A stretch of 64,000 nucleotides of DNA from Streptococcus cristatus AS 1.3089 (GTDB lineage: Bacteria; Bacillota; Bacilli; Lactobacillales; Streptococcaceae): assembly GCF_000385925.1 (NCBI RefSeq), contig NC_021175.1, positions 1,247,501 to 1,311,500 of the forward strand, given 5' to 3'. The position numbers were made by a program, and so were the translations under genes. Under the pieces are notes generated by a model. That model ran no database searches, was not told the DNA's origin, and was given only the letters and a program-made list of their open reading frames with translations. Below are positions 45,727-58,611 of the stretch, piece after piece (position 1 is the first letter of the stretch; every line of letters starts with the position of its first letter).

Positions 45727-46254
45727 TTAAATTCCTTTTTTGTATTGAATTGGGCCGTATTTTTCAGTGATTTTCTTGAGCACACGGCGTTCACGCGCTC
45801 GGTTGATCTGAGTCTTGATAGAGTCGTGCTCGACCAGCGGTTTGACCAAAATCGAGCGAATCCCAGCCCGATGCGCTGCCCGAATATCTGTCATGAGCTG
45901 ATCGCCCACCATGACCACTTCCTTTTTTTCAAAATGAAAAAGCTTGAGCGCCCGATCAATTCCCCAAGTGAAGGGTTTCATGGCCCAGTAGATATAGTCA
46001 ATTTCAAACTTTTCAACAGCTCGCTTGACCCGTTTTTGGTTGTTATTGGACACCACGATAATCCGAATGCCTGCGTCCCGCAAATCATGGAGCCATTTCT
46101 TCATCTCTGGGGTTCCGTCAGGATTATTCCAAGCAATCAGGGTATTATCCAAATCCACCAAAACCGCTTTGATGCCCTGTCTTTTCAAACTCTCTACTGT
46201 CAAATCGTAAACCGCCTCGACCGCAAAGTCGGGCATGTAATCTTCAATCGCCAC
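45727..46254 (-). CDS. yqeG: YqeG-family HAD phosphatase (class IIIA)
   Basis: A 175-residue HAD hydrolase: motif I VLVDLDNTLIAWN (both Asp), motif II IIVVSNNN and motif III VVMVGDQLMTDIRAA. I place the start at a GTG at 46254 (VAIEDYMPDFAVE) because GGAGAG lies 5-6 nt upstream and the family begins there; an upstream ATG would add 19 atypical residues. It is the first gene of the cluster. The 142 bp upstream run into the integrated element. Confidence 0.92.
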   Translation of the reverse strand: MAIEDYMPDFAVEAVYDLTVESLKRQGIKAVLVDLDNTLIAWNNPDGTPEMKKWLHDLRDAGIRIIVVSNNNQKRVKRAVEKFEIDYIYWAMKPFTWGIDRALKLFHFEKKEVVMVGDQLMTDIRAAHRAGIRSILVKPLVEHDSIKTQINRARERRVLKKITEKYGPIQYKKGI

Positions 46255-46380
46255 ATCTCTCTCCAAAAATCGTATTCGCACTATTATAGCATAAAATAGG
46301 CTTTTTGGCACCTATAACCCCATTTCTTCCAAGAGCCATTGGTAGATTCTCCCTTTTCTATTTTCCAAGCAAATGAAAAC

Positions 46381-46425
46381 AGCTCCCCAAGAGCCGACCT
46401 GACACACAGCAGTTTAGTTATTTGG
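46381..46425. other. attL: left junction of the integrated element
   Basis: The chromosome side is AGCTCCCCAAGAGCCG (46381-46396), the proposed crossover dinucleotide AC is 46397-46398, and the element side begins CTGACACACAGCAGTTTA (46399-46416). The element side is the inverted counterpart of 58576-58593 at the right end (16 of 18 positions). That is the layout expected of two halves of a serine-integrase attP. Confidence 0.75.
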
Positions 46426-46432
46426 ATTAATA

Positions 46433-48139
46433 TTAGCGAGCCAAGTTGTTTGGCTCGCTTTTTTCGTTGTTTAATTTCCCAATAAAATTGTAGTAAATAT
46501 CAATCTGAATGATACGATTGCGTTTCGTGCCAGTTGGTTTATGAATCACAATCTTGTCAATCAACTCATTCACTATTTCAACGGTTAGTTCTGGTAGCTC
46601 TGTATATTTAGAAATTCTCACCATAAACTTGGAGATATTCAAGCTATCTTCTTGTTGTTTGGCGAGTTTTTCGGTTAAGTCAGAAATGGAAGTTTGAAGT
46701 TGTTTCTGTTCTTCTTCATAGCTCTGACTTAACTTCACAAAGCGTTCATCTGAAATTTTACCAAGTAGATTATCTTCATAGAGCTTCTGAATGATGCCGT
46801 CAATCTCTTTAGAACGGTGTTCATCTTTTTGGAGTTGCTGGCGCTGACGTTTGTTATCTTTGCTGAATTGAGCTTGGCTTTGCTGTTCTAGCTTCTTCAA
46901 AAAGGTTTCTTGGTCTAATTGGCACTCGTGGATAGTTTGACGAAGTTTGTCGCTTACAATCTCAATCAGGGCGGATTTTTGAATGTAGTGTGGATTTTCG
47001 CAACCATCAATCGGTTTGCGGTAGCCGGAACACTTGTAATGGTCGTGATTGAGTCCTGTTTTACTTTGAAATGGGCAGAAATAGTGTTTTCTTCCACAAG
47101 TTCCACAAAAAACTAAACCTGCAAACAAGTTTTCATGACCAGCCCGATTTTTATACCGTTGATTAGACCGCTTGTGGCTCCTCATCTTCTGAACAATATC
47201 GAAAGTTTCTTGGTCGATAATCGCTTCATGTGTATTCTTGAAAACTAACCAATCCTCCTTCAGGTTATCCACCTTACGCTTGTCTTTATAAGATTTTGTC
47301 CGTGTTCGAAGATTGACAGTATGTCCAAGATATTCTTCACGCCCTAAGATAGCGCTTAGGGTTTCTCGCGTCCAAAAATAAGGCAAAGTTTCCACATTTG
47401 GACTGGAAGAAATAGACTTCAAACCGATTTCTATTCGGTGGCGGTCTGGTTTAAAAATTTTGTCATTTTCTAACCCTTTCGAAATTTCTGAAAGACTTTT
47501 TCCGCTTTTCGCTTCCTGAAAAATCCGCTTCACCACTTCGCTGGCAACTGGGTCAATAATCCAATTTTTAGGGTTGTTTGAATCTTTGAGATAGCCGTAA
47601 GGTGGGTTAGTAGTTACTCGCTCGCCAGCTTTGGCTTTAGCTTGCACCACCGCGCGAATTTTCTTGCTAGTATCCGCCGCATACATTTCGTCCATTAGAC
47701 TCTTGATGGGTAAGAAAATTGAGTTAGTTTCATTAGGCTTATTCGAATCTACGCCATCATTTAGGGCGATAAAGCGAACATCAAAGCTCGGAAAAGTAAT
47801 TTCCGTTAGTTGACCAACCTTGATATAAGACCGACCCAAACGGCTCAAATCCTTTACAATAAAGTTTGAAACTTGCCGATTTTCTACCAACCGCAAAGCT
47901 TCCAAAATAGCTGGACGGTCAAAATTTGTGCCACTAAAGCCATCATCGACAAACAAAATAGGATTAGGGAGATTTTCTTTTGTAACTACATCAAGCAGAA
48001 TTTTCTTCTGATTGATAATTGAGTTACTATCTCCGTCCAGCCCGTCGTCTTGACTTAGGCGACAATAAACCACCGTTATATCTGAAAGTTTTGAAGTATC
48101 TACTTGTCTATAATCTGAAATTGTCAAAGTTCTGTTCAT
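46433..48139 (-). CDS. Large serine recombinase (TnpX-like integrase)
   Basis: Excises and integrates the element. The 568 residues comprise a resolvase catalytic domain (about 20-165) with VVYCRLSQDDG, where Ser29 is the expected nucleophile, NQK, and VKDLSRLGRS. A recombinase domain follows (about 190-300, NPPYGYLKDSNNP). The zinc ribbon has Cys pairs in LVFCGTCGRKHYFC and YKCSGYRKPIDGC, and a long coiled coil (about 395-500) precedes a C-terminal domain. It is complete; AAGGAGA is 8 nt before the ATG. The stop overlaps a hairpin (46436-46458). Position at the element edge fits its role. Confidence 0.93.
   Translation of the reverse strand: MNRTLTISDYRQVDTSKLSDITVVYCRLSQDDGLDGDSNSIINQKKILLDVVTKENLPNPILFVDDGFSGTNFDRPAILEALRLVENRQVSNFIVKDLSRLGRSYIKVGQLTEITFPSFDVRFIALNDGVDSNKPNETNSIFLPIKSLMDEMYAADTSKKIRAVVQAKAKAGERVTTNPPYGYLKDSNNPKNWIIDPVASEVVKRIFQEAKSGKSLSEISKGLENDKIFKPDRHRIEIGLKSISSSPNVETLPYFWTRETLSAILGREEYLGHTVNLRTRTKSYKDKRKVDNLKEDWLVFKNTHEAIIDQETFDIVQKMRSHKRSNQRYKNRAGHENLFAGLVFCGTCGRKHYFCPFQSKTGLNHDHYKCSGYRKPIDGCENPHYIQKSALIEIVSDKLRQTIHECQLDQETFLKKLEQQSQAQFSKDNKRQRQQLQKDEHRSKEIDGIIQKLYEDNLLGKISDERFVKLSQSYEEEQKQLQTSISDLTEKLAKQQEDSLNISKFMVRISKYTELPELTVEIVNELIDKIVIHKPTGTKRNRIIQIDIYYNFIGKLNNEKSEPNNLAR
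46436..46466 (+). terminator. Inward-facing terminator at the left end of the element
   Basis: GCGAGCCAA (46436-46444) pairs perfectly with TTGGCTCGC (46450-46458), followed by TTTTTT. The T run is on the plus strand, so it stops transcripts entering from the left, antisense to the recombinase. The hairpin also encodes the last codons of that gene. Confidence 0.75.
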
Positions 48140-48200
48140 GTGTTTTTCTCCTTTTGGAGTTCACACACCTTATACTTCTATTATACCATTTTTACTACTG

Positions 48201-48368
48201 TTAAAACAGTGATTTATCGCTTAAAATCAACCTTTCTAGGACATTTTCAAGATTACGATTTCCAGTAAAACGGTGACGGATTAAGTAAGTCGTTCGACCA
48301 ATTCGACAAATTTCATCGGCGGTGCGTGAGGGCTGGTTTGAGTCTCTATCTTGATTCTTTTGATTCAT
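48201..48368 (-). CDS. TnpW-like small transposon protein
   Basis: A 55-residue protein, MNQKNQDRDSNQPSRTADEI at the start and ICRIGRTTYLIRHRFTGN in the middle, ending in ENVLERLILSDKSLF. The IGRTTYxxxxxF...L...RLI pattern is that of the TnpW family carried by TnpX-type conjugative and mobilizable elements. Its function is not established. GGGAGG precedes the ATG, and it overlaps the relaxase gene's end by 23 bp, so translation is coupled. Recognised by pattern only. Confidence 0.72.
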   Translation of the reverse strand: MNQKNQDRDSNQPSRTADEICRIGRTTYLIRHRFTGNRNLENVLERLILSDKSLF

Positions 48369-49149
48369 TAGCTATTCCTCCCTTAATATAATCTGGGTAT
48401 TCTTCAAGTGTTATTACAGTGAACAGTTCCCAAAAGTTATATAGTTCTTTTTGAATCGCTTTCGAAATCGCCAGCTTTCGCTTGTCATCTGGCACAACCC
48501 ACAAAACATAGGGGAAAACTTCCTTTTGTCGCTGTTCAATACCTGAGCGATAATATTCAATATATTTTTTACAAGTGTTCACAATTCTAGATAAGCTTTC
48601 GGTGCTTCGGTCTATTTCCAGAAAATAATGGTCTTCGTAATCGTGATTAACCAGCTCCAAATAAGCGTCTGGTTTCAAAGTCATTCCAATACCAGAGAGT
48701 TTTTGGTAGCTTCGCCAAGAGTTCGGCTCAAAGGAAAAAGTTTCAAGCGATAGCTTTTCTGAATTTCGAACGGTCTCCAGTGTCTCAACAAAGATTTCCG
48801 TAATTGCTAAAGTATGTTCAACGTGGTGCTGAGTTGGCTCATATTGATTTTTATAGCGTAAGGTGATACTGTCATCTTGACTTTTAAGGAGCTTTAGCCC
48901 TTGAAAAGTAATTTGCCAGACATAGGAAGACGAGCCCCTACGCACACCACCAATTCTACGTTTCAAGTGCGAAATTAGGCCAGCTTGTTTGAGACTTTGC
49001 GCGGTAAAATTAGCTCGGCGAATAGCGGTTTCAAATCGAACGCTATCTGCGAAAAAGAGTCTAGCTAGTTGGTTGGTAGTCGCAAATCTTGCTTGACTCA
49101 AAAAGTAAAGAATTTGCGTATCTTCATTTGTTAATTGATTCCATTTCAT
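48346..49149 (-). CDS. Replication-relaxation (Replic_Relax) family protein, putative relaxase
   Basis: A 267-residue protein. Residues 1-75 are a winged helix (TNEDTQILYFLSQARFATTN, then ARLFF and RRANFTAQSLKQAGLI). Residues about 105-240 contain KPDAYLEL and, near 177, FLEIDRSTESL, then KYIEYYRSG and FPYVLWVVPDD. The D...ExD arrangement looks like a PD-(D/E)xK nuclease core, as in Replic_Relax proteins of plasmids and integrative elements. I infer nicking or DNA processing at oriT. It pairs with the coupling ATPase 93 bp upstream. Confidence 0.8.
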   Translation of the reverse strand: MKWNQLTNEDTQILYFLSQARFATTNQLARLFFADSVRFETAIRRANFTAQSLKQAGLISHLKRRIGGVRRGSSSYVWQITFQGLKLLKSQDDSITLRYKNQYEPTQHHVEHTLAITEIFVETLETVRNSEKLSLETFSFEPNSWRSYQKLSGIGMTLKPDAYLELVNHDYEDHYFLEIDRSTESLSRIVNTCKKYIEYYRSGIEQRQKEVFPYVLWVVPDDKRKLAISKAIQKELYNFWELFTVITLEEYPDYIKGGIANESKESR

Positions 49150-49242
49150 CTGTTTTGTTCTCCATTAAAATTTAAAGGGTGTTCTCCCGCAAAATGTGCT
49201 TAGTTACGGAGTAAGTCGTGTGAGTAAAAATCCTGAAAACCT

Positions 49243-51462
49243 TTATTTGCCAGAGGCGGACGAATTTTCTTCATCAACACGATCCGAAGAGCGATTGGAA
49301 CGCTTTTTCCTCCCTAAATCTGTTAATTTCTGGTTAGAATTTTCATTTTTTGAAGTAGATTTTTCAAAAATGTAGTTTTCGAATTGACTTTCAATTTCTG
49401 AAATATCTTGTCCGTATCGGCTCAAGCTATTCAAAAGAGGCATGCGACTATCTCTAATTTTTGGTTTAGGTGGGTAGGTTTTACCGATAATCCATCGATA
49501 AGCATTAGGTGAAACTTCTGTTCTAATATATGCCCAAAATAGCGGTAAGCTATAAAAATCTTCTTTATCAATCTCCAGAGTATATTTTGCCATTTCGCGG
49601 GCTTCATCAAGATTCAAGCCAAAAACAATTTTATTCGCAACATTGGATTCAATTCCAGCTTTTAGCTGAGGCGACATCTGGGCGAGGTGTTGGAAGCCAA
49701 TATTCCAGCCAACATTAAATTGGCGAGATTGCGAAAGTGCTTCGTCTAAGTTAGAATTGGGGATTCCTAAGAAACTCGGTGTTTCATCAATATAGATAAA
49801 GACCGATTGGCGTTTGCTTGGCTCAACCGAAGATTGGCGCAAAATTAACATCCAGAGCATGGAAGTGATTAGGCTACCAATTAGTCTCGCAGACTCTGAA
49901 CCAATCACGGCTTTATTAAGGGGAATCAATACAATCTTTCTAGATTGAAAAATTTCCACTAAACTAAAACTAGGTTTACTTTGTCCAAGCATAGCTCGAA
50001 GTTGCGGGCGAAGCAAAAACTGTCGGAATTTATTCAAAATGGGGTTTAACATCTGGTGACGTTGGGCTTCACTGAGTAGCTCAAACCAGTTCCAGAAACT
50101 TTCCAGCCCGATTGGGTCTTTCAGCTCTTTCAGTAGTTTATTGCGAAACTGCTTGTTAGTGAGTAAGCTCGGTAGCATGACTAAAGAAGTGTTTGGAATC
50201 CTAGCAAGAGTTAAAAAACTATGCGACAGAATATCCAGCGAGTAAATTCCAAAGTGTTCAGGATAAAGCCCTTTAAATAGCTCCAACAGATAGTCTGCAA
50301 TAACTTCGGGTTCAATGCCATATTTGGTGAGCTCAAAAGGGTTTATACCAACAATTCGTTTGGCGGTTGGCGAGATAACTACTATATCTTCATCATGTTC
50401 ATCTGGTGTGCGTTCTAAAAGTTCATGAGTTAGCTGACCTTTGGCATCTACCACAACTACACTATGATGTTTAGATTTTATATCTGATAAAATCAAGTGA
50501 CTCATGGCGGTGGTTTTCCCACAACCTGTTGAGCCGATAAAGACAGTGTGCTTTTTACCAGCTTGGGCTGAAATTTGAATTGGTCTTGGTTGACTTTCAA
50601 CCGTTTGCGCCAGACTTCGCTGAATCTTCCGACTAACATTGTAGCCCAAAGGCGGAGTTACTAATTTAGGGTGAACATTTGGCACACCTGCAATATTTTC
50701 TTCCCCAATAGGTAAAAGCATGAAACAGGCTAAGTCTGAGACAGATAAACTATATGGGAAAGACCAAGAGGGTTGTGCTTGATTAAGTTTTTGGATAGCT
50801 AACGGTTTTAATTCAATGGTTGCATTTGATTCCATCATGCGAAAACTACTAAGTAGGCTGTCCAAAAATTCTTTTGTTCGTAAAATACTGCGAGATTGGA
50901 CACCAAGACGAATTTCACACTTAAAAGTAGATTGATTCAATTTTTGGCGCATAAGCTTCTTGGAGCTTTCAGATAGCTCAGGAACATTATTTGTAATCAC
51001 TTGATACCATTTAGCGGATAAATTCGGCAAGTCTTTTGGCTGTGGGCGAGGTGGTGAGCCTACACCAATGACCAACTGAATAACCACTGTCTCATCTGGC
51101 TGAAGTATTTTTGAAATTGCAAGGCTTGAACGTATCATGTTTTCTACAGAGTCCGTTTTTAAAGCATAGTGAGACTCTTTGATGCTCACTAACCGCGCAA
51201 CTGAAATTTTTTCACGCTTTGTAGCTCTTGAAAACTGAATAGCTCGGTGCGATTGAATTAGTTGGCTGATATGTCGCTTGTCTTGTTCTTCTGTTCCTAA
51301 CAGATAGCGCACGCGATTTTTAGATAATCGAATTTCAAAAATAACCGCTTTGCGCCGACTTAGCCCCACCAGTTGACCCAACATAGATTTCACATCATCT
51401 ATCTCAAACGGGCGCATCCAGTTGAATTCGCTCCAAGATAAGGCTTCAAACTTATGTCTCAT
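49243..51462 (-). CDS. Conjugative DNA-transfer ATPase (TraG/VirD4/FtsK-like coupling protein)
   Basis: A 739-residue ATPase. The N-terminal about 280 residues are a mixed domain of unclear fold. Walker A is TVFIGSTGCGKTTAMSHL near residue 311, VVVVDAKGQLTHEL follows, and Walker B is FIYIDETPSFLG near residue 557. A further arginine- and glutamine-containing stretch, SQSRQFNVGWNIGFQHLAQM, matches the sensor motif of VirD4-type proteins. The start at 51462 is chosen over one four codons upstream because GGAGGT is 5 nt before it. No strong N-terminal membrane helix is visible, unlike classic VirD4; the adjacent 55-residue membrane protein may supply the anchor (inference). Confidence 0.85.
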   Translation of the reverse strand: MRHKFEALSWSEFNWMRPFEIDDVKSMLGQLVGLSRRKAVIFEIRLSKNRVRYLLGTEEQDKRHISQLIQSHRAIQFSRATKREKISVARLVSIKESHYALKTDSVENMIRSSLAISKILQPDETVVIQLVIGVGSPPRPQPKDLPNLSAKWYQVITNNVPELSESSKKLMRQKLNQSTFKCEIRLGVQSRSILRTKEFLDSLLSSFRMMESNATIELKPLAIQKLNQAQPSWSFPYSLSVSDLACFMLLPIGEENIAGVPNVHPKLVTPPLGYNVSRKIQRSLAQTVESQPRPIQISAQAGKKHTVFIGSTGCGKTTAMSHLILSDIKSKHHSVVVVDAKGQLTHELLERTPDEHDEDIVVISPTAKRIVGINPFELTKYGIEPEVIADYLLELFKGLYPEHFGIYSLDILSHSFLTLARIPNTSLVMLPSLLTNKQFRNKLLKELKDPIGLESFWNWFELLSEAQRHQMLNPILNKFRQFLLRPQLRAMLGQSKPSFSLVEIFQSRKIVLIPLNKAVIGSESARLIGSLITSMLWMLILRQSSVEPSKRQSVFIYIDETPSFLGIPNSNLDEALSQSRQFNVGWNIGFQHLAQMSPQLKAGIESNVANKIVFGLNLDEAREMAKYTLEIDKEDFYSLPLFWAYIRTEVSPNAYRWIIGKTYPPKPKIRDSRMPLLNSLSRYGQDISEIESQFENYIFEKSTSKNENSNQKLTDLGRKKRSNRSSDRVDEENSSASGK

Positions 51463-51464
51463 CT

Positions 51465-51632
51465 TTACCTCCATTCTTTAGATTTAATAATCCGAAAGGT
51501 AAACCAGCCAACAAAGATAAGGATAGCTCCTATAAATAAGACTTGCCAAACTTCCATTAGAAGTTTAACTGCCCAGTTGATAAGCCAAGCACAAGCAACA
51601 AATCCAAGAATATATGCCATTAGTTTTTTCAT
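51465..51632 (-). CDS. Two-helix small membrane protein of the transfer operon
   Basis: A 55-residue protein, MKKLMAYILGFVACAWLINW, with two membrane helices (about 5-25 and 29-48) and a basic tail ending KSKEWR. AAGGAG lies about 10 nt before the ATG. Its stop overlaps the ribosome binding site of the coupling ATPase, so the two are translationally linked. It could be the missing membrane anchor of that ATPase. No named family is recognised. Confidence 0.78.
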   Translation of the reverse strand: MKKLMAYILGFVACAWLINWAVKLLMEVWQVLFIGAILIFVGWFTFRIIKSKEWR

Positions 51633-51778
51633 AGCTGGTCTCCTTTCTGCTTTATTTATACAAGAAAATTAGGTAAAAGTTAAATTTCGCTGCCTTCAGT
51701 TTTTAGAGCGATTGGAATGAATTTTAAGCAATGAAACAGTAGTATATTTCAACATATTTTTCCTTTTGTCTAGTCCAA

Positions 51779-51988
51779 TCAAGGCTTTTGTTTTCTTTCG
51801 AATTTTCTCAATTCGGATTTTGCAACCAAGAAAAGTTGATTGATTTCTTGCTGTTTTTCCAGAAATTCCGCTAGGGCGATTTCTTCTTCGCTACAGTGCT
51901 TTTTATTTGCTTGTTTTGGTTTTTCGAACCAATCCCAAAGAAATACGGCAACAACGATAATTATAAAAGCTATAAAGTAATCCATCAT
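51779..51988 (-). CDS. Single-span small membrane protein
   Basis: A 69-residue protein with one N-terminal helix (YFIAFIIIVVAVFLWDWF) and a charged helical cytoplasmic part (SEEEIALAEFLEKQQEINQL) ending in basic residues. GAGGT is 6 nt before the first of two ATGs. Unrecognised. It lies 9 bp after the 86-residue gene in the same operon. The 146 bp between it and the 55-residue gene contain no frame I could support. Confidence 0.72.
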   Translation of the reverse strand: MMDYFIAFIIIVVAVFLWDWFEKPKQANKKHCSEEEIALAEFLEKQQEINQLFLVAKSELRKFERKQKP

Positions 51989-51997
51989 AAAGCTACC

Positions 51998-52258
51998 TCA
52001 TTTCATCTTTTCAGTAGCATAATAAGTGAACGCTTTTAGAATATAATCTGTATATGCTTTAGCTTCTGGCGTATTTTTGAGTATTTCAGACTGAGTAAGC
52101 GCCAGATTACCCACTTTATATAAAATATCGCTAGCGAGAAGCTCCAGAGCTTGATTATCTGCCATCGCTTCACTTAGTGTTTTAGCCACTTCTAACTGAT
52201 AGGGGCTAACAAGTTGAGGAAGGTCTACTTTTGGAATTGATTTTTGAATGTGATTCAT
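51998..52258 (-). CDS. Helical cytoplasmic protein, first gene of the transfer operon
   Basis: An 86-residue soluble protein (MNHIQKSIPKVDLPQLVSPY...) with predicted helices and no recognised domain. AAGGAG precedes the ATG. As the first gene behind the divergent promoter it may be a transfer accessory or regulator. Function unknown. Confidence 0.72.
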   Translation of the reverse strand: MNHIQKSIPKVDLPQLVSPYQLEVAKTLSEAMADNQALELLASDILYKVGNLALTQSEILKNTPEAKAYTDYILKAFTYYATEKMK

Positions 52259-52283
52259 GAGATTTCTCCTTTGATTTTGGTAT

Positions 52284-52319
52284 AATTGTTTTAAGTTAGC
52301 TAACTTATGGCTTTATTAT
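52284..52319. promoter_or_regulatory. Divergent promoter region with a 16-bp operator
   Basis: TAAGTTAGCTAACTTA (52292-52307) is a perfect 16-bp palindrome. On the plus strand it lies between TTAAGT (52291-52296) and TATTAT (52314-52319), spaced 17 bp. On the minus strand it covers the -35 zone of a promoter whose -10-like TATACC lies near 52279-52284. A dimeric repressor bound here could shut both directions. Confidence 0.65.
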
Positions 52320-52386
52320 AGAAAAGCCCAAGCGTGATTTGTTGCCAATAATTGTGCTAAAATCTTGCCGATTTCGGAGGTGCTTG

Positions 52387-53397
52387 ATGTTTGATATTCC
52401 TAGTCTATTTTCTATTATTTTAAAACATGCCAATAAAACGACTTGGTCTGATAGAAAGAAAGTTAGTGTAGGCTTATCACTTGCCTTACACGAAGACTCT
52501 TTGGCATATCTAGCGGACACAACTTTCAATAAATTATTTACAGGACAAAATAAAGGACGAACCCTTTACTGGAACGTCCAAGATGAGATAACAGAAAAAG
52601 CCTTTTCCAGCTACATCTTTCAAGCTGAGAAGCGACTAAGCGACACCAATTATAAAGAAAATAAGTTTTTGTTGGCTGATACATTAGAAGATTTTTTTGA
52701 ACTAATAGAAGAATCGCAAAATCTGTCAAAGTCTGTTTTATTAGGTTTAAAGCAGTCTTACAAGCTAAATCACCAAGACCGACCTTATCTTTTTCTGGCC
52801 GAATGTTTATTTTATGCATTAGCTTGCCAGCACAACAAACAGCAACAGTATATTGAGCCAGATTTTAGCCAAGAAACAGAAGTTGTCTCAAAACCATTAG
52901 AAGAACTTGTGTCACGAGCTAACGGTTATTCGAAGCGAATTACTCAAGACTTAAACCGTTTTTCAGAAGAAGAACTTCAACTGTTCAGAAAAATAGCACC
53001 ATTTACTTTTTATGACAATTCCTTTGACGAGTTTTCAGGCGAAGCTGTTTTTGATCACTACTTAATCTCACACGCTGACTTTTTAGATTTGTTCACTAAA
53101 TATGGCGTTAAAGGCAACGAAGTTTCACGCCTGATTGAATATGGTTTAATTTCTGGCGGTGGTAGACATGAGATAATTGTGGAAAAAGGAGAACTATCTG
53201 GCTTCCAGAATGATAACCTAGTTTTAACTTTCACTACTGATTCTGACGAAAGAATAACATTCGAATATAGCGCCTTCCACTTAACAGATACCGCCAAAGC
53301 TTTGATTGAGATTTTGGAGATTGAGACTAATGATGAGTTTTTTAGGGAGTTGGGAGATAAATTTAAAATAAAGTTAAAGGATTACCTATTGATATAG
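52387..53397 (+). CDS. Unknown 336-residue protein divergent from the transfer operon
   Basis: Starts MFDIPSLFSIILKHANKTTW, with GGAGG upstream of the ATG at 52387; the frame opens 16 codons earlier without an RBS. It is soluble and mostly helical. Part of the C-terminal half (FDHYLISHADFLDLFTKYGV, VSRLIEYGLIS, YSAFHLTDTAKALIEIL) resembles the end of DUF2806-type proteins, a weak call. The GVKGNEVSRLIEYGLI segment could be a winged helix. Placement across a shared operator suggests a regulator or a cargo protein; neither is shown. Confidence 0.7.
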   Translation: MFDIPSLFSIILKHANKTTWSDRKKVSVGLSLALHEDSLAYLADTTFNKLFTGQNKGRTLYWNVQDEITEKAFSSYIFQAEKRLSDTNYKENKFLLADTLEDFFELIEESQNLSKSVLLGLKQSYKLNHQDRPYLFLAECLFYALACQHNKQQQYIEPDFSQETEVVSKPLEELVSRANGYSKRITQDLNRFSEEELQLFRKIAPFTFYDNSFDEFSGEAVFDHYLISHADFLDLFTKYGVKGNEVSRLIEYGLISGGGRHEIIVEKGELSGFQNDNLVLTFTTDSDERITFEYSAFHLTDTAKALIEILEIETNDEFFRELGDKFKIKLKDYLLI

Positions 53398-53535
53398 AAA
53401 TATTGGGTGTAGATGATTTTTAAATTAAATACTATCCATACGCTATTTTTATTACAAAAATGTTTCGATACTATAAAGTATATGACAAAAAATATAAAGA
53501 TTTTTTAAAATTAACTAAATTATTCAGATAAAAGA

Positions 53536-53590
53536 TTGCTTATTTATTTGAATATGTGGTATAATGAATCTGAAAGATATTTTATCTTTT
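53536..53590 (+). promoter_or_regulatory. Upstream promoter and attenuator-like hairpin
   Basis: TTGCTT-18-TATAAT (extended -10, TGGTATAAT, ending 53565). A few bases into the predicted transcript there is a perfect hairpin AAAGATA-TTT-TATCTTT followed by T/A bases (53573-53590). It could end most transcripts at once. Confidence 0.5.
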
Positions 53591-53610
53591 AAAAACGTCT
53601 AATTTTAATA

Positions 53611-53639
53611 TTGACAAGTTAGAATGTTTTTGCTATAAT
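53611..53639 (+). promoter_or_regulatory. Consensus promoter TTGACA-17-TATAAT
   Basis: TTGACA (53611-53616) and TATAAT (53634-53639) with exactly 17 bp between: a perfect sigma-A consensus in AT-rich noncoding DNA. No gene of useful size follows on that strand. Confidence 0.85.
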
Positions 53640-53645
53640 CGAACG

Positions 53646-53750
53646 GTTATCATTTATTGAAAATTTATTCAGTTTGAATACAGAAACATCTGTTATTTAC
53701 GTATGGCAGATTAATTTTATACATCGTCTGCGCTTTTCTGAATTTTTTGA
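53646..53750 (+). ncRNA. Candidate small RNA with a three-way junction
   Basis: Predicted from the consensus promoter to a T-rich end. Closing stem ATTCAG (53667-53672) with CTGAAT (53738-53743), then TTTTTT. Inside are the hairpin ACAGA-AACA-TCTGT (53680-53693) and the stem GCAGA (53706-53710) / TCTGC (53727-53731). No open frame above about 16 codons. It resembles no RNA family I can name. Prediction only. Confidence 0.5.
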
Positions 53751-53776
53751 CAATTTAATAAAATGGTAACTCAAAT

Positions 53777-53852
53777 AAAAAACCACTTCCGAAAAACGAA
53801 AGTAGTTCTTTAACCGAGTAGTTTTATAAACTATTGCCGTAGTTTATAAAAT
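53777..53852. terminator. Terminator and hairpins behind the 147-residue gene
   Basis: On the minus strand, a perfect hairpin TTTATAAACTA / TAGTTTATAAA (about 53822-53852) is followed by AACTACTTTCG-TTTTT-CGGAAGTGGTT, then TTTTTTATTT. Between the two lies AACTACTCGGT, complementary to the mRNA leader (see 54368-54378). The remaining bases of 53398-53880 show no gene. Confidence 0.65.
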
Positions 53853-53879
53853 GAATCACATCTCCACCAGTGAGATTAA

Positions 53880-54323
53880 CTATTTATTACGGTTACGCTT
53901 ATCCTTGCGTAGCCGTTTTTTACTGCCTTTACATGGCGGTTCTTTATTTGAATTCTTCATAAACAATTCAATCAGAACTTCCAAAATTGGATAAGCTTTT
54001 TCAAAAACACTCATCAAAAGCAAATCAATATTTGGAGGATGAAGCACCAAAATCAGAATAATACTAATTGACAAGAATAACGCTTGTCGTATAGCTTTTT
54101 GTTTCTTCGTACCAGTTGTATCTAGCAATTTTTCCGAAGAACCCCACTTCTTTCGCAAAATCATATAAATGGATTCAAGAATTGAAGGAATCCTGATAAT
54201 GGATTGAGAATACAGAGCCTCTGGAGATTTTTGCCAAGCAGCAACTAGAGCAAAAGCATCTTTGCAGATACTACTCAGCTGATCTATGTGTGATACAGAG
54301 TCGCTTTTTCTAAAAAACAACAT
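53880..54323 (-). CDS. Small membrane protein with a basic tail, behind a structured leader
   Basis: A 147-residue protein, start MLFFRKSDSVSHIDQLSSIC. I choose 54323 because AAGGAGGTGG lies 6 nt upstream; the open frame continues further but without an RBS. Residues 1-80 are soluble and helical. A hydrophobic pair of segments covers about 80-125 (LFLSISIILILVLHPP and IDLLLMSVF...). The last 25 residues are strongly basic (GSKKRLRKDKRNRNK). No family is recognised. The long leader, hidden RBS and membrane location suggest a tightly held, possibly toxic product (inference). Confidence 0.68.
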   Translation of the reverse strand: MLFFRKSDSVSHIDQLSSICKDAFALVAAWQKSPEALYSQSIIRIPSILESIYMILRKKWGSSEKLLDTTGTKKQKAIRQALFLSISIILILVLHPPNIDLLLMSVFEKAYPILEVLIELFMKNSNKEPPCKGSKKRLRKDKRNRNK

Positions 54324-54328
54324 TGTAA

Positions 54329-54355
54329 CCACCTCCTTCTCAATAAAAGAGGTGG
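54329..54355 (-). promoter_or_regulatory. Shine-Dalgarno-sequestering hairpin
   Basis: On the mRNA, CCACCTC (54355-54349) is a perfect complement to GAGGTGG (54335-54329), with a 13-nt loop. GAGGTGG is the core of the ribosome binding site for the gene starting at 54323, so translation should be blocked unless the hairpin is opened. Confidence 0.7.
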
Positions 54356-54367
54356 AGAAAGTGACAC

Positions 54368-54378
54368 AACTACTCGGT
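54368..54378 (-). repeat. 11-bp inverted repeat across the 147-residue gene
   Basis: ACCGAGTAGTT on the minus strand here is matched by ACCGAGTAGTT on the plus strand at 53813-53823. In the mRNA this places perfectly complementary 11-mers in the 5' leader and the 3' trailer. Confidence 0.7.
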
Positions 54379-54395
54379 AGGAATAATAAAAGAAA

Positions 54396-54567
54396 GAGGA
54401 AACGCATTACATAGTAGCGCCCCAAAATTAGATGCGCACACATCAAAATCAGATTCATAGTTCCACAAGCCTAACTATACTAAATAGCAGGCGCTGCCAT
54501 GAGAAATGATTTTTAATGTATGGCTTCATCTAAATCTCAGAGCAATCTTTATATAATGCATTTCCTC
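54396..54567 (-). ncRNA. Structured leader RNA (~172 nt)
   Basis: Two stacked helices: 54396-54409 with 54554-54567 (14 pairs, one G-U on the minus-strand RNA) and 54410-54421 with 54490-54501 (12 positions, one G-U, one mismatch). The left arms are contiguous and the right arms are separated by a 52-nt side domain. Inside are hairpins ATAGTT/AACTAT (54457-54478) and GATG/CATC. It lies in the predicted 5' leader of the 147-residue gene. I cannot match it to a known riboswitch class. Confidence 0.6.
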
Positions 54568-54622
54568 GTTTTCTAACCTAGGAATATTTTAATGGTATAT
54601 ACCCCTAGAATTCCTTAATTTA

Positions 54623-54651
54623 ATTATTGCATAAGTTTGTCGTAATGTCAA
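54623..54651 (-). promoter_or_regulatory. Promoter TTGACA-17-AATAAT for the structured leader
   Basis: On the minus strand -35 TTGACA (54651-54646) and -10 AATAAT (54628-54623), spacer 17. Start near 54616 gives a leader of about 290 nt. Just downstream lies the palindrome GGTATATACC (54595-54604), a possible operator. Confidence 0.7.
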
Positions 54652-54823
54652 GATTGAATATATTACTTTCTAATGAAAATTTTATCTTTATTTCAATTTA
54701 ATTTTCTATTTTCTATGCTTTTTTCTTGTAACTTTCACTAAAATTCAAAGAAACACTATTTTGGGGACAAGAGAAAGCTCATAAGCATACTAAAATATTT
54801 AAATCCAAAGGACATATAGAATA

Positions 54824-54832
54824 TGATATAAT
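54824..54832 (+). promoter_or_regulatory. Extended -10 promoter for the DUF6161-like gene
   Basis: TGATATAAT with no clear -35. The leader of about 75 nt ends in AAGGAG 9 nt before the ATG. The stretch 54652-54823 shows nothing else I can name. Confidence 0.55.
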
Positions 54833-54914
54833 GAGTGTAAATAGGTATTCTTCTAGCTAATACTAATTAAGAGTCAATTTATTAATAGAAAGATAAAGCA
54901 GACAAGGAGTTTGA

Positions 54915-56207
54915 ATGGTCAAAAAAACTAACGCCCAAATTTCCAATTTTATGGATGAATATTTCTTATTCCAAATTAATAATAGTAACTATAGTCTAAA
55001 TTATGATCAACCAGAGATAACATTTTCTGATTTAGAGTCTATAATTCAATCTAATTATAAATACTGGAAACAAAAAAATGAGGAGAATGATCTAGCAACT
55101 CCTATTCTTGAAGAATGGACGAATTGGAAGACAAAATTTGAACAATTAAAAGATTTTCTCAAGAATAAGGACGAATTTAATTATCAAGAAATAGCTAATT
55201 TCTTATATAACTATTTCAGTTCGGATTATTCAAGTGAAGGTTCAACAGAAATAAGAATATATCGAATAGATGTTGATAGTCCAATCAATAAAGATAAAGA
55301 TATAGTAAGTATAAGATTGTTTATAGATTTTTACTTAAAAAGCTGGGCTACAAACTACCTGCTGGATGCTATAAGAAGTTATATTGAGATTGAAAAGAAT
55401 AAGAACAATATTGGTTACTATCTCTCATCTACTGAATCATATCGAAATTTGCCTGCTTTGTTTGTCCTCAACAGAGAAATACCTAAACTCAAAATTCCTA
55501 TCAAAGATATTCAAAATAAGCTAGTCCAGCCTGTTTCGGAATCTATAGACAATATAGCCAAAGAAACTGAAGAACACTTTAAACAAACAGCTAACTTAGT
55601 TGATAAAAATGATGAAAAAATTAGAGAAATTTTCATAGAACATTCTCGTGAAGTAGATGAATTTAAACACAATCTTGAACAATGGCAAAATAACAAAGAG
55701 ACATCTATAAAGATTTTAGAAGATACCTATGAGAAAAAACTACAGCTTGAAGTTCCCGAAAGATTATGGAAAGAGCGTTCAAAAAATTACAAAGTCAAAA
55801 CTAGGTGGTGGATGGGTGGTCTTGGAGTTTTTATCGTTGGACTGATATTTTCGGCAGGTAATTTATTGATTAGCATACATAACTATCTACAAGGAACGGA
55901 AAAAGATATTCCATTTATTTCACGATCCTTTATCTATGTCGCACTGATTTCTTTTTTGATATACCTTATTAGAATTATTATTAAGATTATTATTTCAAGT
56001 CAACATATGGCAATGGAATATGAACAAAAAGAAGCTTTAACAAGATTTTATCAAGCATTAGTTTATAATGGTAAAGATGTAGACAAGGAAGAACGCTTGA
56101 TAATTTTTAATGCTTTATTCAGTAAAACAGAAACAGGCCTTGTTAAGACAGATAACTCTGGAGAATCTGAAGCATTAATGGCCTTACTTTCTAAGACTAT
56201 AAAATAG
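54915..56207 (+). CDS. DUF6161-like membrane protein
   Basis: A 430-residue protein: a soluble N-terminal part (about 1-200), a coiled coil (about 205-290, EETEEHFKQTANLVDKNDEK and on), then two membrane helices (about 297-322 and 338-362). The C-terminal cytoplasmic tail includes MAMEYEQKEALTRFYQALVY. This layout matches my knowledge of DUF6161 proteins, but the call is by pattern. The function of that family is unknown to me. As cargo on a mobile element with a membrane effector-like design, a role in phage defence or exclusion is possible but unproven. Very AT-rich. Confidence 0.7.
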   Translation: MVKKTNAQISNFMDEYFLFQINNSNYSLNYDQPEITFSDLESIIQSNYKYWKQKNEENDLATPILEEWTNWKTKFEQLKDFLKNKDEFNYQEIANFLYNYFSSDYSSEGSTEIRIYRIDVDSPINKDKDIVSIRLFIDFYLKSWATNYLLDAIRSYIEIEKNKNNIGYYLSSTESYRNLPALFVLNREIPKLKIPIKDIQNKLVQPVSESIDNIAKETEEHFKQTANLVDKNDEKIREIFIEHSREVDEFKHNLEQWQNNKETSIKILEDTYEKKLQLEVPERLWKERSKNYKVKTRWWMGGLGVFIVGLIFSAGNLLISIHNYLQGTEKDIPFISRSFIYVALISFLIYLIRIIIKIIISSQHMAMEYEQKEALTRFYQALVYNGKDVDKEERLIIFNALFSKTETGLVKTDNSGESEALMALLSKTIK

Positions 56208-56249
56208 AGATAGTTATTTTAGCCGTCTTTTAATGTTTAAAGATATATA

Positions 56250-56282
56250 AACTCAGATTGTTTAGACTATTAGGTGTCACAC
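56250..56282. other. Internal copy of the right att half-site
   Basis: ACTCAGATTGTTTAGACT continuing ATTAGGTGTCAC then AC, in the same orientation as 58562-58595 (ACTCAGATTATTTTTAGACT, GCTGAGTGTCAG, AC). It suggests that an earlier right end of the element lay here and that 56283-58595 is a later addition. Confidence 0.6.
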
Positions 56283-56363
56283 TGTTTTTTCTTTTTTTGT
56301 AATTCATGGCAACATCGTGCACTAAACAATATACTATCAATACGAACATTACATAACCTATCA

Positions 56364-56394
56364 GACTTGCGAAAACCGCGAGTCTTTTCTTTTA
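56364..56394 (+). terminator. Terminator before the small recombinase gene
   Basis: GACTTGCG (56364-56371) pairs with CGCGAGTC (56377-56384, one G-U), followed by TTTTCTTTTA. It isolates the DUF6161-like transcript from the next module. Confidence 0.8.
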
Positions 56395-56421
56395 TCTAAG
56401 TTTTCTTCTAAAATATAGCTA

Positions 56422-56435
56422 CCCTGCTACAATAG
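56422..56435 (+). repeat. 14-bp inverted repeat bracketing the recombinase cassette (left)
   Basis: CCCTGCTACAATAG here, and its exact reverse complement CTATTGTAGCAGGG at 57299-57312. The left copy contains an extended -10 (TGCTACAAT) for the recombinase gene. The bracketed segment is 891 bp end to end. Confidence 0.7.
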
Positions 56436-56452
56436 TAAAGAAAGGAGAAATT

Positions 56453-57097
56453 TTGACAAATCATCACAAGAACAAATTAGAAAATATCAAAACTATAACT
56501 ATCGGCTATGCTCGCGTTAGCTCAACAGATAATCGGCAAGAATTGGGTTTGTCTGTTCAAAAAGAAGCACTCAGCTTTTGCGACAAGCTCTATATCGAGA
56601 AAGATTCGGGCGGAAATCAGGAGCGACCGAAACTTGATAAGGCGTTAAAATTAGCTAAAAATTATGCTAAACAAGGGGTTAAAACAAATTTTGTCGTATA
56701 CAAATTGGATAGGCTTACCAGAAAGATGTTTCACCTCTCCGCTATTATTGAAGATTTAACCAATCATGGCATTAGCCTTCAATCTCTTCATGAAAATATT
56801 GAGACGGCTTCTTTAACTGGTAAATTCTTTTGCTTAATGCTGGGATATGTGGCGGAATGGGAGCTTCAAGCCATTTCTGAACGCACAAAAGATGGATTAC
56901 GCAAAGCTAAAGAGCGAGGCGTAAAACTAGGAAATAAAGGGTTACCTAAAGATACCGAAAAACAAATAATCGAGCAATACCTACGAAAAGAATTATCTGT
57001 GCGAAATATTGCGAATCAGCTGAATATTTCCACCGCAACCATATATAATGTGCTAAAGCGCAATGGTGTCCAGATAAATAGAAGAAATAACCTATAA
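56453..57097 (+). CDS. Small serine recombinase (resolvase/invertase)
   Basis: A 214-residue recombinase. ITIGYARVSSTDNRQELG carries the nucleophile Ser23, and FVVYKLDRLTRKMFHLS and AEWELQAISERTKDGLRKAK mark the E-helix. The C-terminal helix-turn-helix (about 165-208) is VRNIANQLNISTATIYNVLK. The start is a TTG at 56453 with AAAGGAG 7 nt before it. It is a different, shorter family from the integrase at the element's other end and probably acts on the palindromic sites behind it. Confidence 0.9.
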   Translation: MTNHHKNKLENIKTITIGYARVSSTDNRQELGLSVQKEALSFCDKLYIEKDSGGNQERPKLDKALKLAKNYAKQGVKTNFVVYKLDRLTRKMFHLSAIIEDLTNHGISLQSLHENIETASLTGKFFCLMLGYVAEWELQAISERTKDGLRKAKERGVKLGNKGLPKDTEKQIIEQYLRKELSVRNIANQLNISTATIYNVLKRNGVQINRRNNL

Positions 57098-57143
57098 ATT
57101 ATTGACAAATCTCTAAAAAAATAGTAAATTAAACTCATCAATA

Positions 57144-57287
57144 GTTTTAGTAAACGGTCGTTTGTTAAAACAATCAAAGTTATCAATAAAAAATATTTAA
57201 AATGCTGATTTGACAAGGTTTAGAGGCTCTGTCAGGTTGGCATTTTTTGATTTTTCATTGTTTTAGTTGACGACCGTTCACTAAAAC
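57144..57287. promoter_or_regulatory. Two 28-bp palindromic recombinase sites flanking a terminator
   Basis: Sites at 57144-57171 and 57260-57287 each have 12-bp arms starting GTTTTAGT and ending (T/C)TAAAAC around a 4-bp centre (GGTC and GACC). This 12-4-12 form is that of Tn3-type res site I. Because the centres are reverse complements, the two sites lie in inverted orientation. Between them 57199-57215 pairs with 57230-57246 (17 pairs including G-U) followed by TTTTTT, a strong terminator for the recombinase gene. Confidence 0.65.
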
Positions 57288-57298
57288 AAGCTCAAACC

Positions 57299-57312
57299 CT
57301 ATTGTAGCAGGG
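57299..57312 (-). repeat. 14-bp inverted repeat bracketing the recombinase cassette (right)
   Basis: CTATTGTAGCAGGG, exact inverse of 56422-56435. Its own extended -10 would point left, back toward the recombinase gene. Confidence 0.65.
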
Positions 57313-57344
57313 ATTTTTGTAGATATAACAAAAAGAGGTGATCT

Positions 57345-57814
57345 ATGGAGGGGATAGTCAAAAATATTGCTAAAGTTACGATACTTTTGTTTACTTTCAT
57401 AAGTTTGAACGCTTGTACTCCGGAAAAAGATTTGTAGGTACTTGGACTACAGATATATTTAACCAAGGAAACACAAGAGAAGATGCCAAAAGCATAATAA
57501 ATTCATTAGCAGGCAATGAGCTAAGCGGTAGTATCTTATCTACGCTTATGAATGAGTTACATTTTAACGCTACTATGGAAATTAAAGAAGATGGAACTTT
57601 AGTTATGGATAGTGGAATGCTATTTGATGCAACTTGGAAAAAAGATGGGGATAAGATAATCATTGATGGCGCTAATATCTATGGAGTTGCTACTCTTTCT
57701 GAAGACCAAAATACACTATATTTTGAAAATATCATAGATAAAAACGCGGAGCCTGCTAATGGTATTACTATTGGTAGCAACTCAATAACATTTGAGTTCA
57801 AACGTGTTAAATAG
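57345..57814 (+). pseudogene. Frameshifted lipoprotein gene
   Basis: The first frame encodes MEGIVKNIAKVTILLFTFIS followed by LNAC, a clear lipoprotein signal with lipobox, and stops at TAG (57435-57437) after 30 codons. The +1 frame carries the mature domain GKRFVGTWTTDIFNQG to 57814, about 130 residues of lipocalin-like beta pattern ending SNSITFEFKRVK. Adding one A to the five-A run after CCGG would join them as ACTPEKRFVGTW. RBS AGAGGTG. A signal-less product from an internal start is unlikely. Confidence 0.75.
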
Positions 57815-57826
57815 ATGGAGGAATAT

Positions 57827-58321
57827 ATGGAAAATAGTTGGAGTATGGTTGTGTTTGGTTTTGCAATTATAGCCCTACCGTTCCTACTTATAGTGAGTGT
57901 AGCAACTAAGTTTTCGGGGGTCCAATCATTTGGAAGAGCACGCTCTAAAGGTAATAAAACAATCTCAGAAAGCGAGGCAAGTAGCACCACTATGAATTAT
58001 ATTCATCCGAAATTAAAACCTAGATTAGTGATTTTAGCTCTTTGTGTTATATCTTTCCTATTCTTTGGATTTAAAGGAAATGGTGAAGTAAATTACTATG
58101 GAGCAAATTTTGAAGTAGGTTCGGTATTTTATCCTGAGTCGTATACTTCTTATGGTTTGTTTAAGGGGTTATCAAATGAGCTAAATAAGTTGGTAGCAAA
58201 AAAGAGACATTCTAGTTTAGTAGGTGTATTAGTTTCTTTTTCTATAGGCGGAATAGTCTCTTATTCTCTATGGAAAGATGATGAATTTAAGGAGTTACTC
58301 ATTGAGTTACGAAAATCTTAG
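57827..58321 (+). CDS. Three-helix membrane protein of unknown function
   Basis: About 164 residues, start MENSWSMVVFGFAIIALPFL; GGAGG lies 5 nt upstream, while an ATG four codons earlier overlaps the previous stop. Hydrophobic helices lie at about 6-28, 68-84 and 138-155, with a charged loop between the first two. No family is recognised. It is in one operon with the lipoprotein gene and the next small gene. Confidence 0.72.
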   Translation: MENSWSMVVFGFAIIALPFLLIVSVATKFSGVQSFGRARSKGNKTISESEASSTTMNYIHPKLKPRLVILALCVISFLFFGFKGNGEVNYYGANFEVGSVFYPESYTSYGLFKGLSNELNKLVAKKRHSSLVGVLVSFSIGGIVSYSLWKDDEFKELLIELRKS

Positions 58322-58334
58322 ATAGGAGAAAATA

Positions 58335-58499
58335 ATGGAAATTATTATTGGATTGGTTATGCTTTTCATACTTGCTTACTTTTATGGAAAATTTGAAGAT
58401 TTCCTGAATTTTATTTTTAGTGGTATCTTTGGATTTATATCAGGAAAATATAATGACAGTCTAGATGAATACGAAAAGAAGAAAAATGACGATAAATAA
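58335..58499 (+). CDS. Small single- or two-span membrane peptide
   Basis: A 54-residue protein starting MEIIIGLVMLFILAYFYGKF. The hydrophobic N-terminus and FLNFIFSGIFGFISG make one or two spans; the tail DEYEKKKNDDK is charged. TAGGAG is 8 nt before the ATG. Last gene of the element; unrecognised. Confidence 0.7.
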   Translation: MEIIIGLVMLFILAYFYGKFEDFLNFIFSGIFGFISGKYNDSLDEYEKKKNDDK

Positions 58500-58504
58500 G
58501 ATAG

Positions 58505-58540
58505 TTTAAAAGCTAAGACTGGTTTTGTCTTAGCTTTTTA
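58505..58540 (+). terminator. Terminator at the right end of the element
   Basis: AAAGCTAAGAC-TGGTTTT-GTCTTAGCTTT perfect hairpin followed by T's, 5-10 nt after the last gene. Confidence 0.85.
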
Positions 58541-58561
58541 TCATTATTATAAGGTATGCGA

Positions 58562-58611
58562 ACTCAGATTATTTTTAGACTGCTGAGTGTCAGACTATCT
58601 AGCGGGAAGCT
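58562..58611. other. attR: right junction of the integrated element
   Basis: Element side TAGACTGCTGAGTGTCAG (58576-58593), dinucleotide AC (58594-58595), chromosome side TATCTAGCGGGAAGCT (58596-58611). Joined with the left flank it gives AGCTCCCC...AC...GGGAAGCT, a palindromic attB different from attP. Confidence 0.75.

Follow-up and report, generated by a model that had tools for sequence, protein, structure and literature searches.

Integrative and mobilisable elements (IMEs) with a MobC relaxase (PF13814), a VirD4 coupling protein and a serine integrase were described by Coluzzi et al. (2017) as IME_class_8, a class that accounts for two of 144 IMEs, follows the order coupling protein, relaxase, excisionase and integrase, and has a relaxase which these authors term "canonical" (PMC5357655). 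A survey of S. salivarius reported 12 serine-integrase IMEs of the MobC and VirD4 kind and suggested promoters or terminators as the target of the same class (PMC7563491), MOBC IMEs with VirD4 were reported in S. suis (PMC7168690), and Guedon (2017) listed IME_SsalCCHSS3_ND of S. salivarius CCHSS3, with the proposal that such elements replace the coupling protein of a helper and borrow its channel only (PMC5704250). The element analysed here lies in a 64,000-nucleotide stretch of Streptococcus cristatus AS 1.3089 (NC_021175.1, positions 1,247,501 to 1,311,500; hereafter the window, from whose first letter all coordinates are counted). It almost certainly belongs to this known class, IME_class_8 or IME_PF13814, and is not a new type; the joint reading, which is probable, is that of a 12.2-kb IME_class_8 element whose right arm carries a phase-variation cassette (Table 1). 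The original prediction for this DNA had spoken of an unusual IME type with a non-canonical relaxase, and neither expression survives comparison with the published class and its wording.

For the cassette, precedents for each principle are found in two described switches. In cwpV of Clostridioides difficile, which encodes a surface protein and has RecV as its recombinase, the promoter stands outside an inverted segment and the OFF state is modelled as intrinsic termination in the transcript, an arrangement like the one proposed below; there, the hairpin arises where repeat and segment meet, whereas here it lies inside the segment, and cwpV, as far as the excerpted text goes, is apparently found off IMEs (PMC2784873). 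In S. zooepidemicus, a recombinase-linked invertible region before the LPXTG gene SZO08560 likewise represents inversion before a surface protein gene in a streptococcus, but it was read as an invertible promoter, has a different repeat sequence, and is described in the available excerpt without mention of an IME (PMC2654543).

The ends of the element were set at 46392 and 58600 because empty relatives join the flanks there. Of 284 genomes of the genus, 282 have a match to the left flank (45727-46396). Ten of the matching loci were retrieved, including that of the window; in all nine others (L033-L041) the flanks adjoin without the element, with the junction at 46391|58601 in L033, L034, L036, L037, L038, L040 and L041, and with flank matches that end up to about 55 bases off it in L035 and L039. 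Both ends are marked by inverted CTGACAC..AGCAG motifs, flank comparison of loci places relatives of the element between other flanks, and one relative, L024, has identical left and right ends within different surroundings. The G+C content is about 45-49% left of the element, 29-41% inside and 40-46% to its right. The element predicted at 46397..58595 is thereby retained, with its ends moved to those of the empty sites.

Within these ends, the integrase, the Replic_Relax protein and the ATPase were found by Pfam at the positions and in the families predicted, all three with intact reading frames. The integrase carries Resolvase, Recombinase, Zn_ribbon and DUF4368 domains; the relaxase matches PF13814 at E=2.3e-37 (129.4 bits against a cut-off of 25.3) and the ATPase matches PF10412, TrwB_AAD_bind, at E=7.1e-14 (51.9 bits against 20.5), while NCBIfam matches of the three proteins fall below their cut-offs. 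Their order is that of the published class, with the excisionase assigned by position only to a 55-residue open reading frame (ORF). This ORF had been labelled TnpW-like, an identity that was rejected: there is no Pfam TnpW match, and a search of this genome with PF14202 yields no match at E<=10. The predicted codirectional arrangement applies to the left part, where all genes up to 52258 lie on the minus strand, and fails to the right of 52387, where the described genes are on the plus strand with the exception of the 192-residue ORF (53880-54458). With its serine integrase, PF13814 relaxase, VirD4 protein, compact order and intergenic site, the element resembles IME_SsalCCHSS3_ND and its class. 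Its ATPase shares 93% identity with cluster P0122, which bears the name SALIVB_1480 of S. salivarius CCHSS3 and which, we infer, would be the coupling protein of that published element. The differences are the proposed flip switch and the proposed two-protein motor, neither mentioned in the excerpts of the published texts, and the terminator-like target seen here.

In the relaxase, the predicted D...ExD core proved to be invariant (D161, E178 and D180) across 26 aligned sequences. A structure model (predicted local distance difference test, pLDDT, 88.5) gave three Foldseek matches at E<=0.001, all of them FokI (best 1.3e-4, TM-scores 0.25-0.28), followed by N.BspD6I, PaqCI and XisH with low TM-scores and weak superposition; residues 1-96 match a MarR-type winged helix. 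A second list of structures was taken up by MarR winged helices, so that the absence of nucleases there is uninformative, and a search of the relaxase profile against solved structures returned nothing credible (best E 0.072). The evidence for a restriction-endonuclease-related fold in the modelled relaxase is thus supportive rather than strong.

The coupling ATPase is 743 residues long when read from an upstream ATG, most listed relatives having 739, and its profile against solved structures finds RecA (2.9e-8) and then TrwB (5.5e-8). Among 27 relatives, TrwB_AAD_bind is matched in 26, TraG-D_C in 16 and AAA_10 in 14. A defence role of the core was considered and set aside, since the mad8 and HerA matches of the ATPase were judged to be generic motor matches. 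The ATPase has no transmembrane segment of its own, and the p55 ORF, encoding two membrane helices, overlaps its start by 10 nucleotides; the combination appears to be a new detail for the class, and a two-part motor is proposed. Parallels may be drawn with the two-protein coupling protein TraI/TraJ of pIP501, in which a VirD4-like ATPase is likewise accompanied by a membrane-associated protein encoded immediately upstream (PMC4981023), although pIP501 is conjugative with a full channel and p55 is small, its anchor role being putative; and with CloDF13, mobilisable with a MOBC relaxase (MobC), its own coupling protein (MobB) and a borrowed channel, which differs in being a Gram-negative plasmid whose MobB has an essential membrane domain of its own (PMC7431656, PMC12857230). 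In the mechanism proposed for the present element, the serine integrase would excise a circle, the MOBC relaxase would nick the origin of transfer by means of a DNA-binding winged helix and a restriction-endonuclease-like nuclease, and the TrwB-like motor, tethered by p55, would pass the strand on to the channel that a resident conjugative element provides.

No secretion-channel family, VirB4 or other type IV secretion system gene was recognised among the element ORFs scanned, the 54-residue ORF at 58335-58499 lying outside all library scans, and within that scope the families and ORF scans agree with the prediction of a mobilisable element that combines a Replic_Relax relaxase and a coupling ATPase of its own and lacks a channel. 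Of the 18 genomes that bear the element, 11 were searched for AAA_10; six have a match, three of them over the cut-off including that of the window's host; the family is not specific, and it also has matches in 10 of 14 control genomes. The host match sits in a Tn916-type element (G000:C1, about 1590000-1611000; L119, L120) together with an FtsK/SpoIIIE-type protein, a Rep_trans relaxase, an EF-G-like protein that is presumably TetM, and an integrase whose DNA-binding domain is that of Tn916. Coupling proteins of the VirD4 type, by contrast, are associated with FATA channels (PMC5357655). Several of these results weigh against the borrowed channel: the channel ATPase of the host stands in a Tn916-type element with an FtsK-type coupling protein, so no helper is assigned; eight of the 11 genomes have no AAA_10 match over the cut-off; the motor fold of the ATPase is equally near VirB4, DndH and TrwB; and no origin of transfer was located, a repeat search of 51400-52420 having given only short weak repeats and no iteron set.

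The same results bear on the alternative, already voiced in the original prediction, of a minimal self-sufficient conjugation or DNA donation, in which relaxase and membrane-tethered motor export DNA without a separate channel, perhaps using the natural competence of recipients. It gains from the absence of a recognised channel gene in the ORFs scanned, from the eight genomes just mentioned, from the pairing of a membrane-free ATPase with a two-helix partner and from the published DNA-donation ATPase system of Thermus; a full-length structural alignment moreover covers R388 VirB4 over model residues 5 to 684, as if the ATPase might merge VirB4-like and VirD4-like roles. That alignment has a root-mean-square deviation of 15.5, however, so the domains are arranged differently, the sequence profiles favour coupling proteins (26 against 14 of 27 relatives, as given above), and none of the VirB3, VirB6, VirB8 or pilus families matched in the ORFs scanned. 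With nothing positive beyond the structural hint, channel-free transfer is considered highly improbable. That the element is an immobile relic is unlikely. The lipoprotein-like frame of the window copy (57345-57814) is interrupted after 30 codons, which also weighs against a working cassette, an intact copy being present in L055, and a vestigial right-end-like sequence lies inside the element at about 56252-56290; the intact frames of integrase, relaxase and ATPase and the clean flanks relative to empty loci oppose that view.

The target itself has a recurrent form. Joined flanks fold into a hairpin across the junction in nine of ten elements (z between -2.4 and -6.0 relative to mononucleotide shuffles), the only exception being L027 (z -0.3). 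Like an intrinsic terminator, the hairpin usually comes with a T run. The target-site set comprised eleven elements, L045 being dropped from folding as its left end was not found, and the window was represented by the true empty site of L033, the others by joined flanks. The junctions were set by eye, with a possible bias toward hairpins, and the shuffles preserve base but not dinucleotide content. We infer from these sequences that the integrase probably inserts the element at the apex of intrinsic-terminator-like hairpins, which would be a new detail relative to the published class and would go beyond the "promoters or terminators" of the S. salivarius survey (PMC7563491).

Relaxase matches occur in 19 of the 284 genus genomes, the host included, of which 18 are convincing, a few with stops or split; the weakest is that of G238 (E=4e-4, 25% identity). 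The survey of streptococcal genomes advised by the original prediction thus finds the same gene set elsewhere, the order integrase, 55-residue ORF, relaxase, ATPase, p55, p69 and p86 being common, with gaps, to 20 integrase-bearing loci; p55 is absent from L031, which is cut, and from L049. A scan of named genomes with the ATPase found eight loci, seven streptococcal and one from a metagenome bacterium. Among the matches listed, relatives of the relaxase come from S. suis, S. salivarius, S. mitis, S. cristatus, S. anginosus and Aerococcaceae, with more distant ones (about 36-45% identity) in Blastococcus and many unnamed metagenome proteins, and relatives of the ATPase, queried with the copy of L050, come from Coriobacteriia and Saccharibacteria.

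The original inventory had missed the region 56453-57287, in which a Pfam match and paired inverted sites mark a second recombinase and an invertible segment, and which is read here as a phase-variation switch. The small serine recombinase would flip the segment between two inverted sites that follow a fixed promoter-like sequence. In the common orientation the transcript would form a long hairpin and stop (OFF); in the flipped one its G.U pairs would become A.C mismatches, the hairpin would be weakened, and the surface-protein or lipoprotein genes beyond would be expressed (ON). In the window, 57174-57262 has a folding energy of -26.4 kcal/mol for the transcribed strand and of -18.0 for its complement, each much lower than in shuffles (z -4.65 and -4.61). 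The proposed working is cwpV-like, with a PF00239 serine recombinase in place of an enzyme of a different family, RecV being a tyrosine recombinase. That the segment is invertible is very likely; that control of the downstream genes is terminator-based, with termination as predicted from folding, is likely.

With a threshold of E<=1e-30, 43 of the 284 genus genomes contain the recombinase; with E<=1e-55, it is found in 17 of 395 genomes of the order, of which seven lie outside the genus. Forty-five switch loci were inspected (L054-L083, L090-L098, L028, L047, L050, L106, L114, L116), and paired inverted sites were found in 41, comprising 37 tabulated loci and four near pairs (L090, L095, L097, L098). 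Same-place duplicates (L024, L025, L029, L042, L043, L045, L048, L049, L051, L103-L105, L107-L113, L115) stand outside the 37, L084-L089 and L099-L102 were left out of the switch count, and the cores of L066 and L078, mis-centred in the tabulation, were read separately as true pairs. In 35 of the 37, the transcribed strand gives the stronger hairpin, the two exceptions being L028 and L080; in 36, a promoter-like match stops 22-26 bases short of the first core (L066 being the mis-centred one). Members of a second recombinase clade (47-60% identity; L075-L083, L090-L098), some of them from genomes of further genera in the order, lie close to inverted cores at 14 of the 18 loci inspected.

Inversion is seen most directly in L028, whose inner segment rises from 0.52 to 1.00 identity with the window once inverted, between flanks that match it at 93% on the left and identically over the 17 bases present on the right; it is a clean inversion exactly between the two site centres. 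An assembly error is unlikely because its two sites, as in the window, share only a 9-base exact word. The inner segment of L080 similarly goes from 0.59 to 0.97 identity with L082 once inverted. Both orientations, as expected of a cwpV-type switch, are thus present among assembled sequences, cleanly in L028 and with an extra 36-base copy in L080. These inversions also bear on whether the small recombinase is a resolvase, its two sites a res site and the hairpin incidental. Two 28-bp dimeric sites within about 145 bp beside a serine recombinase gene presumably resemble res layouts. Yet a segment inverted exactly between site centres in L028, and with its complication in L080, the matching alternative core centres (TT/AA) kept by both sites in L064, L106, L075 and L077, and the recurrence of promoter-like sequence and hairpin at similar positions make a resolvase very unlikely.

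The strand asymmetry of the hairpin was followed through 17 distinct hairpins, which on the transcribed strand have 66 G.U and 6 A.C pairs and keep 282 of 289 pairs versus 222 of 289 on the opposite strand, fewer in each. An alignment of 25 of the 27 clade-1 hairpins (L059 and L060 were missed by the pattern) pairs in 97.5% of cells against 33-53% with columns slid by one to three; two of 500 shuffles reach the observed value, their mean already being 96.4%. An invertible promoter, as described for SZO08560 (PMC2654543), would be the other way of explaining a flipping segment before an LPXTG gene, and termination at the present switch is a prediction only. A consensus scan, on the other hand, detects promoters on neither strand of the segment, be it that of the window or that of the inverted L028, and places the promoter-like match outside, and the strand bias of the hairpin is conserved. 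An invertible promoter is accordingly regarded as unlikely, and the terminator-based switch is preferred, folding and strand bias agreeing with a promoter outside and a terminator inside.

A number of observations count against the switch as drawn. A simple terminator scanner, which allows loops of 3-8 only, flags none, and the promoter scan gives 2 sites in the window region where shuffles give 2.1, so that the promoter-like match is no rarer than in shuffles of the region; in 10 of the 37 loci at least 10% of shuffles equal the promoter score. No core pair was found in four of the 45 loci (L076, L091, L094, L096), and the two cores differ by a base in five clade-1 loci (L062, L068, L069, L071, L072). 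Inverted forms number just two in 37, and one of them, L028, is a metagenome contig that stops 7 bases beyond site 2. The right side of L080 holds a 36-base inverted copy of the left, promoter-side flank, a feature that L081-L083 and L092 lack, having only 11-base words between their sides; a single inversion step therefore does not account for L080, and its sequence may contain an assembly artefact. The hairpin alignment shows double changes in just 2 pairs, a number reached by 185 of 500 shuffles, and no excess of further pair types over shuffled alignments (476 of 500).

Recombinase and paired sites are carried by 12 of the 20 integrase-bearing loci, and in 12 other loci (L103-L114) the switch is present with no element core genes in the 11.5-20 kb fetched. 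The site pattern had no match in viral contigs, and recombinase with switch had none in plasmid and phage collections. Judged by eye over about 1.3 kb downstream of the switch, eight of 21 loci encode an LPxTG protein and one (L067) an LPKTN variant; several more have lipoprotein-like or membrane proteins. It is tentatively suggested, as a possibility short of likelihood, that a portable cassette of serine invertase, fixed promoter and invertible, G.U-directed one-way terminator has become distributed among streptococci, on IMEs as well as in loci lacking IME core genes, often before surface proteins. If so, phase variation of streptococcal surface proteins would be tied to mobile elements; on IMEs, cargo able to alter surface or mating behaviour would become stochastic, with only part of the carriers paying or benefiting at any time; and "invertible promoters" in the genus may need re-reading. 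A switch working in the proposed manner would use an asymmetry of RNA pairing, G.U holding and A.C failing, to make a terminator directional, and a DNA flip to turn genes on. No description of this cassette on an IME, nor the term "invertible terminator", was found among the listed entries of open-licence papers; PMC12324116, PMC5903667, PMC6722419 and PMC8406281 were set aside as dealing with other inversions (pneumococcal hsdS, chromosome-scale) or unrelated matters.

Table 1. Features of the element in window coordinates.
Feature	Position	Strand	Remarks
Whole element	46392..58600		from empty sites in relatives; ends +/- 2-3 bases
Left end	46392..46412		contains CTGACACACAGCAG; inverted partner CTGCTGAGTGTCAG at right end
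Large serine integrase, 568 residues	46433..48139	-	PF00239, PF07508, PF13408, PF14287
55-residue ORF in excisionase position	48201..48368	-	in 14/20 integrase-bearing loci; no family match
MOBC-type relaxase, 267 residues	48346..49149	-	PF13814; winged-helix N-terminal part and restriction-endonuclease-like part
Coupling ATPase, 743 residues	49243..51474	-	PF10412; no transmembrane segment
p55, 55 residues, two membrane helices	51465..51632	-	proposed ATPase membrane anchor; in 18/20 integrase-bearing loci
p69, 69-residue one-helix membrane protein	51779..51988	-
p86, 86-residue protein	51998..52258	-
336-residue protein	52387..53397	+	divergent from transfer genes; in part of the family
192-residue ORF	53880..54458	-	strand unlike other described right-arm genes
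DUF6161/AbiZ-like anti-phage cargo, 430 residues	54915..56207	+	PF19658 6.2e-54; PADLOC AbiZ 9.7e-44
Small serine recombinase, 214 residues, proposed switch invertase	56453..57097	+	PF00239 4.7e-32 and helix-turn-helix
Fixed promoter-like sequence	57102..57130	+	TTGACA-17-TAAATT, reading into switch
Crossover site 1, 28 bp	57144..57171	+	core ACGGTCGT
One-way hairpin, 17 bp, proposed terminator	57199..57246	+	four G.U pairs
Crossover site 2, 28 bp	57260..57287	-	core ACGACCGT, inverted to site 1
Putative switch-controlled genes	57345..58499	+	lipoprotein-like ORF, 168-residue and 54-residue membrane proteins
Right end	58580..58600		contains CTGCTGAGTGTCAG

Beside these features, the leader of the integrase (48140-48200) is the best-conserved non-coding stretch (0.974 over nine relatives) and more conserved than the coding genes; it is taken here as the putative integrase promoter rather than as an origin of transfer. 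After site 2, a conserved stretch with CTATTGTAGCAGGG (57297-57318 in the window) is present in 12 of 13 printed copies, L028 ending before it, and is possibly a second weak hairpin. Among the right-arm genes, the 336-residue protein is 26-95% identical across the element family where found. The right-end-like sequence at 56252-56290 follows the AbiZ-like gene, and in L044 the right end occurs at the equivalent place, which suggests that the right arm was put together from two related elements.

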